Shown piece by piece: positions 12,373 through 21,866 of a DNA stretch of 32,242 bases. The DNA is from an uncultured Armatimonadota bacterium (lineage in GTDB: Bacteria; Armatimonadota; Fimbriimonadia; Fimbriimonadales; Fimbriimonadaceae). The stretch is from contig CAILEM010000089.1 in NCBI GenBank assembly GCA_903833215.1, forward strand, positions 1 through 32,242, given 5' to 3'. Both the position numbers and the translations under genes were made by a program. The notes below the pieces were generated by a model. The model did not search any database, was not told the DNA's origin, and worked only from the letters and a program-made list of their open reading frames with translations. Positions within the stretch are counted from its first letter, which is position 1, and every line of letters begins with the position of its first letter.

Positions 12373-13314
12373 GTGACATCACCGGCTCCAAAAGAAGAAT
12401 TACGGAACGAGCCGATTGGCTGGATCCTTGTGTGCGTTGCCGCCATGCTGTGGGGCACCGACCTGCTGTTTCGTCCAAGTGTCCTGTCCAGCGGGCTCGA
12501 TTCTGTCGCGTTGGTAATGTACGAGCATCTCGCGTTGACGATTATCTTTTTGCCTGCGCTCATCAAGAACTGGCGAACCTGGACCCGATTGAGTTGGCAA
12601 GAGATCGTTGCGCTGTTGTTCATTGCTTGGGGTGGGTCAGGATTGGCCACGGTGCTATTGACCCAAGCTTATGCAGCGGGTGAGCCCGTCACTGCGACGT
12701 TGCTCCAAAAGCTCCAGCCTGCCTTCGCGATCACCTTGGCGGCGCCCATTCTTGGCGAGCGACCCCGCAAGCTGTTTTTCGTTTGCTTCGCGATTGCGAT
12801 GCTGGGTGCTTATCTGATGGCGTTCGGGTTTGCTTGGATCTGGAATCCAACGAGTAAGCAGGCGCTTGTTGCTGCGGGCTACGCCCTTGGCGCGGCAGCG
12901 CTGTGGGGCGGTTGCACTGTCATTGGTCGTTGGTCGCTACGCCACATCGAGCCGTACACCATGTCCGGGCTCCGCTTTACCTTGGCTTTGCCGATGCTCG
13001 TCGGCTGGAACTTGATGATGCGCGGGTCGTTCCAGGCGAAATTCAGCATGCCAGACAAGGCTTGGTTGCCACTCGCAGCGATCGTGTTGCTTCCCGATGC
13101 GCTGGGAATGGCGCTGTACTACATCGGCCTGCGCCGAACCACGGCATCCCAAGCAACCCTTGCTGAGTTGGCTTACCCTGCCACCGCGATCATCCTGGCG
13201 TATCCGATCACCCACGCCTTTTCATTCTGGAAGTGGGTGGGAATCGTCTTGCTCATCGCGAGCTTGTACCTCATCAAATCCGGCAAGTTCGTAAACGCCC
13301 CCGCCGAATCTTGA
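12373..13314 (+). CDS. EamA/DMT-family permease
   Basis: 313 residues from GTG at 12373. About ten hydrophobic helices form two EamA repeats: the first from WILVCVAAMLWGTDLLF, the second from GYALGAAALWGGCTVIGRWSL, each with the typical W-G motif. PVTATLLQKLQPAFAITLAAPILGERP and TLAELAYPATAIILAYPI are the conserved ends of the two repeats. It is an inner-membrane transporter of the drug/metabolite superfamily, probably exporting a small metabolite; the substrate cannot be told from sequence. It diverges from the alpha-galactosidase gene and is convergent, 2 bp apart, with the zinc-ribbon gene that follows. Confidence 0.9.
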   Translation: MTSPAPKEELRNEPIGWILVCVAAMLWGTDLLFRPSVLSSGLDSVALVMYEHLALTIIFLPALIKNWRTWTRLSWQEIVALLFIAWGGSGLATVLLTQAYAAGEPVTATLLQKLQPAFAITLAAPILGERPRKLFFVCFAIAMLGAYLMAFGFAWIWNPTSKQALVAAGYALGAAALWGGCTVIGRWSLRHIEPYTMSGLRFTLALPMLVGWNLMMRGSFQAKFSMPDKAWLPLAAIVLLPDALGMALYYIGLRRTTASQATLAELAYPATAIILAYPITHAFSFWKWVGIVLLIASLYLIKSGKFVNAPAES

Positions 13315-13316
13315 GT

Positions 13317-13835
13317 TCAGTCAGTCTCGCCGATAAGAAAAATCATCAGGCCGGACGAGACGATGTCGAGGATGGCCGCGACCAACATCACGATGCCAAG
13401 CGGACCGAAGACCACGGTCATGCCTATAGTGGTGGGAATCGCTAAGATCCCCGATGCAATTCGGATCCAGCAGAAGATGTTTACGATTCCTCGGACAATT
13501 TCTACTTTGAAGAGGAGACCAAGGCCGATTGCCGATGTGAGGACTCCAATGATCATCATGACCACTTGAATCGGTCCCATCCCTGTCACCTCAACGCCGG
13601 ATTTCTTGGCGGAAAGTGAAATGAGAATTTGGACGATCGTCCAGATTCCGCTAAGTACGAAGTAGCCAGAGATGGTGTAGTAAGCCGGCCAAATCCACGC
13701 GGCAGTCTGCATCAACGGCCGTTTATTGGTTTCGGCAGTCTTGGGACGCGGGACTTTAGAAATATCGGTGTGGCAAAACTGGCACGTCTGGGCCCAGTCG
13801 GGCAAGCTGTTGCTGCATTTAGGACATTGGATCAT
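13317..13835 (-). CDS. Zinc-ribbon membrane protein (four helices)
   Basis: 172 residues. The N-terminal ribbon has CPKCS at 4-8 and CQFCH at 17-21. After a basic linker there are about four transmembrane helices: ISGYFVLSGIWTIVQILI, then PIQVVMMIIGVLTSAIGLGLLF, VNIFCWIRIASGILAI and a final paired stretch. The architecture is that of many small bacterial zinc-ribbon membrane proteins of unknown role, and it resembles the cluster at 877-3561 only in plan. ATG at 13835 follows a TATATA box by 9 nt, implying a very short leader. Confidence 0.8.
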   Translation of the reverse strand: MIQCPKCSNSLPDWAQTCQFCHTDISKVPRPKTAETNKRPLMQTAAWIWPAYYTISGYFVLSGIWTIVQILISLSAKKSGVEVTGMGPIQVVMMIIGVLTSAIGLGLLFKVEIVRGIVNIFCWIRIASGILAIPTTIGMTVVFGPLGIVMLVAAILDIVSSGLMIFLIGETD

Positions 13836-20629: not shown

Positions 20630-21059
20630 GGGCGCGTCTAGTTTACTTCGTGAGCAAACCAACACCGGTGATGCCAGTTTATTGATTGAATGGGCTTTCG
20701 CTGGGAGGCAAGCCGCTCAAGCACCCTGTGCGCAACAGCATGTAACTCGCTGAAATGTCCAAATAGCATCAAGTCGTTGAGGTGTTCTTTGGCCAATGCT
20801 GAGAGCCTAGTGGGAAGACTCAGGTGATAAGGTCAAAAGCGGCTATTGGTGTTTCAAGCGGGTTCGTAAATGTACGTTTTGATCGCGTTTCAGGCTCATT
20901 TTGATCGACTTCGGTCAGTCTGTCGCATGATCGTTGTTAGGTACCTTGTCGGATACTGTCGAATAGTGTAAGCTAAATAAAACGTTTGAATAGTGGGCTA
21001 AGGCAATCCTTTAATGAATGTTAAAGATCCTCCACCTACTGCTCGTGTTATTCCCTAAT
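20630..21059. other. Intergenic region before pheT and the AFGE gene
   Basis: 430 bp between divergent genes. I see no T-box, riboswitch or additional gene for pheT. Near the right end, ATG at 21014 opens a 14-codon frame (MNVKDPPPTARVIP) that ends at 21058, immediately before the GAGGAG of the next gene; it could be a leader peptide or chance. Confidence 0.4.
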
Positions 21060-21060
21060 T

Positions 21061-21066
21061 GAGGAG
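21061..21066 (+). promoter_or_regulatory. Shine-Dalgarno GAGGAG before a non-AUG start
   Basis: GAGGAG lies 8 nt before ATT at 21075 (ACG at 21072 is the other option). No ATG, GTG or TTG in this frame lies between the upstream TGA (21060-21062) and GTG 21174. This site therefore decides the start of the AFGE protein. Confidence 0.55.
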
Positions 21067-21074
21067 AGTTTACG

Positions 21075-21866
21075 ATTCCTATACCGCCATATAATCGAAG
21101 GTTTGTTCCATCCGTAGAAGCTTTTGGTGAACGGAAAACCCTTCTTGAATGGTCGCGCGACCCACGATGCGTCGTGAAGTACGGCACCTTGGCCCACCGA
21201 ATCGGCCAGGCATGGGACCCAGAACAGGCCTTAACCAGGCCAGTTGAACATCGAGATCGCGTCTACACTCGCCCCCTTAAGACGATCGAGGCATTTGGAG
21301 AGACGAAGTCGGTCTCAGAATGGGCAGCCGACCCTCGCACGGTCGTCCTGGCAAACGTGTTCCTCCGTCGCATCCAGCATGGTTGGTCGCCAGAATCCTC
21401 CCTGACCACGTCGGTCAGTGCTGCCGCCGCCAAGCGAGAGGCCAATGCGATGTTGTACGAGGCTTTTGGCGAAGAAAAGACCTTGCGCGACTGGGCCGCC
21501 GATGAGAGATGCAAAGTGTCGGAAATGACGCTCCGCAAGAACATCCATTCCGGCTTGAGCATGGAAGAGGCATTCAAGTTTCGCCGAAAACCAGGTCGAC
21601 ATTTCCTTGGATCTCAAGAAGATTTCAGTGGCGCGCTCAATGAATTGAGGACGGTCGTGGGCTATCTGCGTGAAGGTGGCGAACTGTGGGTTTACACCAC
21701 CAACGATGTGAGCCGAATTTCCTTGATCCACCGGGATGCCCGTCACACCCTCACCGCCGACATGTTCCAAGAACTCTTGGACAAAGAGTTGGTTGAGAAG
21801 ACGTTTGAGACCGATACGATCAAGAACTATGAGTTGACCAAAGCGGGCAAACTCGTCAAATTCTAA
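21075..21866 (+). CDS. Three-repeat 'AFGE' protein, probable DNA-binding; non-AUG start
   Basis: 263 residues if read from ATT at 21075. Three copies of a ~43-residue module occur: VEAFGERKTLLEWSRDPRC, IEAFGETKSVSEWAADPRT and YEAFGEEKTLRDWAADERC. Each is followed by a helix ending in RIxxxWxPExALT or similar. This module is familiar from phage and mobile-element proteins, where it accompanies DNA-binding or nuclease domains; sequence-specific DNA binding is an inference. The C-terminal ~90 residues look like a winged-helix-type domain (LTADMFQELLDKELVEKTF, then YELTKAGKLVKF). The first ordinary start codon, GTG 21174, would cut the first repeat in half. The missing start may be real AUU initiation, a mutation, or a sequencing error. 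Confidence 0.75.
   Translation: MPIPPYNRRFVPSVEAFGERKTLLEWSRDPRCVVKYGTLAHRIGQAWDPEQALTRPVEHRDRVYTRPLKTIEAFGETKSVSEWAADPRTVVLANVFLRRIQHGWSPESSLTTSVSAAAAKREANAMLYEAFGEEKTLRDWAADERCKVSEMTLRKNIHSGLSMEEAFKFRRKPGRHFLGSQEDFSGALNELRTVVGYLREGGELWVYTTNDVSRISLIHRDARHTLTADMFQELLDKELVEKTFETDTIKNYELTKAGKLVKF

Follow-up and report, generated by a model that had tools for sequence, protein, structure and literature searches.

Translation of a gene for a regulator-like protein with three AFGE repeats very probably initiates at an AUU codon, at position 21075 of a 32,242-nt window that forms a contig of a 6.2-Mb Armatimonadota draft genome in 168 contigs (G000). Syntenic orthologues were found in three further genomes of the same genus, recorded as Fimbriimonas sp. 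and uncultured Armatimonadetes (G004, G012 and G019), and in the resulting alignments no start codon other than AUU or AUC appears to fit all of the four species from which the arrangement is known. The original prediction of AUU initiation is strongly supported by the conservation of this ATT/ATC codon and by purifying selection acting ahead of the canonical starts. Annotation programs as a rule accept only ATG, GTG and TTG, and genes of this kind are therefore truncated or lost; under ordinary annotation, the AFGE gene would have a DNA-binding-like repeat cut in half.

Start region and its conservation in four species

Re-reading of the sequence confirmed the predicted layout, in which an open frame of 267 codons runs on the plus strand from GGA 21063 to TAA 21866, GAGGAG stands 8 nt before ATT 21075, ATG, GTG and TTG are absent from the frame ahead of GTG 21174 and three AFGE repeats follow the ATT, the first from about 21117 (Table 1). 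The 3' end of the 16S rRNA in the source genome is the standard GGATCACCTCCTTT and contains the anti-Shine-Dalgarno (anti-SD) sequence CCTCC, and the AUU codon has an SD sequence at the proper spacing, as a genuine non-canonical start should. Taken singly, the SD pairings of the four species rank with the best 2-13% of the window ATH codons; that of G004 is of ordinary strength, 13% of the window ATH sites being equally good. No conserved RNA structure was found at the start, folding being no better than that of shuffled sequences in all four species. Further upstream, G012 and G019 have an inverted repeat TTGT-N9-ACAA about 131 nt before the start, overlapping the -35 element of the promoter; in G000 the repeat is imperfect. 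Considered as an autoregulatory operator, it was judged too weak, being confined to the promoters of these two species.

Table 1. Features of the AFGE-repeat gene and its upstream region (positions in the window)
Feature	Position	Strand	Remarks
Candidate promoter TTGTCG-17 bp-TAAGCT	20946..20974	+	predicted, weak; G012 has TTGTCT/TAAACT at the same place; G019 sequence aligns
14-codon upstream frame MNVKDPPPTARVIP	21014..21058	+	ATG 21014 to TAA 21056-21058; judged a chance frame, not conserved in three orthologues
In-frame stop TGA	21060..21062	+	bars any start further upstream in the frame of the gene
Shine-Dalgarno sequence GAGGAG	21061..21066	+	8-nt spacer to ATT; register common to G004, G012 and G019
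Probable start codon ATT (AUU)	21075..21077	+	ATT in G004, ATC in G012 and G019; sole near-cognate position common to four species
Coding sequence from ATT	21075..21866	+	263 codons and a stop; comprises three AFGE repeats and a modelled C-terminal winged helix
AFGE repeat 1	21117..21236	+	beta-beta-helix-helix-helix (model); approximate coordinates
First canonical in-frame start GTG	21174..21176	+	within repeat 1; rejected as main start; not a start codon in G004
AFGE repeat 2	21288..21407	+	from sequence and model; approximate coordinates
AFGE repeat 3	21459..21578	+	from sequence and model; approximate coordinates
C-terminal winged-helix domain	21636..21863	+	model residues 188-263; MarR/MepR-type structural matches

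The orthologous proteins are 63% (61-63%; G004) and 53% (G012 and G019) identical to that of G000, and in all three genomes the gene is flanked by pheT and the genes following it on one side and by a gene for a small secreted-type protein and a 133-aa gene on the other. The codon aligned with ATT 21075 is ATT in G004 and ATC in both G012 and G019, and no column of the protein alignment before its isoleucine is invariant. G004 and G012, too, have a TGA in frame four codons ahead of the isoleucine codon, which is itself invariant; G019 lacks it and has a TAA 29 codons upstream of the isoleucine codon with no canonical start in between. The first canonical start is encountered at codon 38 in G000 and at codon 61 in G004 (counted from GGA 21063, so that codons 1-4 precede the isoleucine codon and codon 38 is GTG 21174), while in G012 and G019 an ATG without visible SD, which could serve there, stands ten codons past the AUC. 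The near-cognate codon thus stays non-AUG in these relatives; a distant two-repeat homologue (G007) has instead an ATG nine residues ahead of its first repeat, close to the aligned position without coinciding with it.

Codons 6-37 are under purifying selection, with pN/pS values of 0.13-0.31 in all six species pairs, compared to 1.0-4.3 when the same stretch is read in the other two frames. Substitutions at the first, second and third codon positions number 52/26/122 in this stretch versus 12/13/16 in codons 1-4, which are unconserved (pN/pS 0.43-1.0) with changes spread evenly over the codon positions. Codons 6-14 taken alone are modestly conserved (pN/pS 0.22-0.86). A conserved coding sequence therefore exists with no canonical start upstream of it, as expected for a gene with a non-canonical start. 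Since selection acts on codons 6-37, ahead of every ordinary start, translation has to begin upstream of them all, and since G000 and G004 translate residues 6-37 with no earlier canonical start, the start should be one of the few codons that follow the TGA.

These observations bear on each of the other ways in which the gene could be started. GTG 21174 is the earliest canonical start in the frame, and if it were used, the protein would lack most of repeat 1 and the open frame upstream would be incidental. We consider this very unlikely, because the codons that it would leave untranslated are under strong purifying selection, because G004 keeps repeat 1 intact although its earliest canonical start is codon 61 and because truncation at this GTG would, according to the structure model, remove the hairpin and the first helix of repeat 1. 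A start at codon 15, with the preceding stretch untranslated, would retain the whole of repeat 1 and would fall on an ATG in two of the four species (G012 and G019). It is nevertheless improbable, as this codon is ATA in G004 and GTT, a very poor start, in G000, while in G012 and G019 it has no SD of its own, the SD lying about 40 nt upstream, beside the AUC; moreover, codons 6-14 of these two species differ chiefly at synonymous sites (pN/pS 0.22). ATT is a single base away from ATG and the window stems from a draft assembly, so that an ATG at 21075 might have been destroyed by a sequencing or assembly error or by a very recent mutation. The chance of this is negligible, as the three other genomes, which are separate records, have ATT, ATC and ATC at this codon and none has the ATG that would have pointed to such an event.

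The 14-codon frame noted earlier just before the ribosome-binding site does exist, and a second frame of 14 codons, which shares the reading frame of the gene, opens at ATG 21018 and closes at TGA 21060-21062. Both end beside the SD, at 21058 and 21062, and could be imagined to deliver ribosomes to the gene by frameshifting, stop readthrough or coupling, making an AUU start unneeded. However, G019 contains no such frame, G004 and G012 contain different ones in other registers, and G019 also lacks both the TGA at this place and an in-frame canonical start upstream. There is no conserved RNA structure either, and coupling would still require a start codon for the gene. Delivery of ribosomes from upstream is thus a highly improbable substitute for initiation at the AUU codon, and a role of the 14-codon frame as an upstream peptide or in coupling was rejected because the frame is not conserved in the three orthologues.

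Repeats and winged helix of the predicted protein

The structure model of the protein (mean pLDDT 79.2, with low confidence for the first nine residues) has a pTM of 0.32, at which the arrangement of the domains is not reliable. Every repeat is modelled as a hairpin followed by three helices (beta-beta-helix-turn-helix), and the repeats are followed by the C-terminal winged helix. The latter matches MepR and other proteins with Z values up to 5.8 (rmsd 2.7 over 64 residues) and has no Pfam match; the winged helix being a common fold, the domain is assigned to no family. With Z values in the middle range and so common a fold, DNA binding is a fair inference rather than a finding, and we regard the modelled protein as probably DNA-binding and regulator-like.

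The repeat region, and this region only, matches phrog_3377, annotated as HNH endonuclease, in three stretches (E 2.2e-12), which by sequence places the protein, together with paralogues in the same family, among the AFGE-repeat or phage HNH-associated repeat proteins. The repeat is thus common to these proteins and to phage HNH endonucleases, whereas the protein described here ends in a winged helix and yielded no match to an HNH nuclease domain in Pfam or NCBIfam. No match was obtained in a sequence search of the PDB, Foldseek returned nothing from the PDB at E 0.001 or better, and a search of a phage collection gave a single weak match, to the repeat. Unlike the AUU gene, its paralogues in related genomes, with up to about ten AFGE repeats, start at ordinary codons. 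Proteins consisting almost wholly of AFGE repeats, in frames of up to 757 residues with about ten repeats, are scattered over genomes of the same family (loci L011, L012, L013, L022 and L002), and some copies carry in-frame stops.

Other non-canonical starts in the genus

The starts of infC were read from the open frame, the SD and the alignment in 16 genomes of the same genus. They are ATA in 11, ATC in four and ATT in one, a canonical start being found in none of the 16, so that the genus uses the AUH class of codons where it is expected. The SD of infC in the genus, GAGGTGA, often overlaps an in-frame TGA. A second regulator gene, encoding an XRE-type helix-turn-helix (HTH) and a cupin domain (G000:C12:78381-79091; L113:18381-19091), has an ATC start with an SD, and this ATC and SD are found at one position in G000, G012 and G019, the sequences being 80-89% identical. 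The first ATG of the gene in G000 falls inside the HTH. Judged from this alignment, the XRE-cupin gene is one with a conserved AUC start.

In a homology survey, 950 kb of the source genome was compared with a 1.5-Mb comparison set in which 223 genes had a homologue. The survey flagged 23 of the 223, and inspection by eye left only infC, the AFGE gene and the XRE-cupin gene without a usable canonical start, most of the other flagged genes being fragments, shadow frames or genes in which a conserved leader precedes an ordinary start. As homologues of these three genes had been put into the comparison set on purpose, three in 223 cannot be read as an unbiased rate; of the remaining genes, about 220, none was judged to lack a usable canonical start. 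A survey of the same 950 kb by coding potential was insensitive, since the N-termini of the AFGE gene and of infC score negative in it, yet it turned up the XRE-cupin gene. Conserved AUH starts are, accordingly, rare in the source genome but extend beyond infC alone. Frames conserved ahead of the ATG were also observed, in G000:C40:70976-71305 and L132 (reverse strand, frame 13106-13522), at rpsO-like (MPLNPELKSST) and rplT-like (MARIKRGLMRHK) genes, as expected for the leader RNAs of ribosomal-protein genes.

Possible control through IF3 and comparison with known systems

Initiation factor IF3 rejects non-canonical starts, and infC exploits this rejection for self-control. By analogy, the weak AUU codon could keep the regulator-like AFGE protein scarce at the step of translation, which would then depend on the strictness of IF3 toward non-canonical starts; when IF3 is scarce, output of the AFGE protein would rise in parallel with that of infC, which itself starts at AUA, AUC or AUU. 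The conservation of the AUU/AUC start suggests that translation is the step at which the cell keeps this protein low, and on balance we lean towards a weak, IF3-sensitive start that limits a regulator. Self-regulation in the strict sense of infC, to which the original prediction had alluded, is not implied, because the AFGE protein is not IF3 nor any other initiation factor; sensitivity to IF3 as known for sigR appears the likelier analogy. More tentatively, it is possible that in Fimbriimonas with large genomes a few regulator genes, among them at least the AFGE gene with its AUU or AUC and the XRE-cupin gene with its AUC, are subject to IF3 along with infC, so that the supply of IF3 would control transcription regulators. 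We found no earlier description in the literature of IF3 control of transcription regulators by non-canonical starts in Armatimonadota.

To our knowledge, conserved AUU/AUC starts outside infC are limited to very few genes, each with control through the start codon. Based on its sequence, the AFGE gene would join this small class of genes with non-canonical starts, and the XRE-cupin gene would make a wider class testable. The Armatimonadota case, with a second regulator of this type in one and the same species, suggests that weak starts limit regulators more widely than has been recorded, and also that comparison of close genomes can reveal genes with non-canonical starts without experiments.

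Among the systems with which the AFGE gene can be compared, infC resembles it in its AUH codon, which follows a good SD; an in-frame TGA often overlaps or abuts that SD. The product of infC senses the codon, resulting in self-regulation, whereas the AFGE gene would at most be regulated by IF3 in trans. For pcnB of E. coli, which encodes poly(A) polymerase, AUU is cited as limiting expression (cited in PMC9410913 and PMC13009471); both genes thus carry an AUU outside infC, and their proteins are unrelated. The weak starts of ccpN (AUA) and cvfC1 (AUU) in Staphylococcus aureus are conserved together with their SDs and give about 10% of the expression from AUG in poor medium, expression of ccpN being higher in rich medium (PMC13009471). 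These genes have a longer, extended SD, rest on initiation mapping and reporters and encode unrelated proteins, while the AFGE case derives from sequence comparison; they resemble the AFGE gene in that a regulator or regulator-like protein has a non-canonical start and an SD conserved among relatives. In Streptomyces, sigR has a GTC start and is held down by IF3, and the stress response becomes deregulated once the weak codon is replaced (PMC5472188). sigR differs from the AFGE gene in its codon, in encoding a sigma factor, in its operon with an anti-sigma factor and in the experimental nature of its IF3 control, the IF3 link of the AFGE gene being a putative one. Conversely, what the two would have in common is a regulator limited by a non-canonical start that is conserved in the genus.
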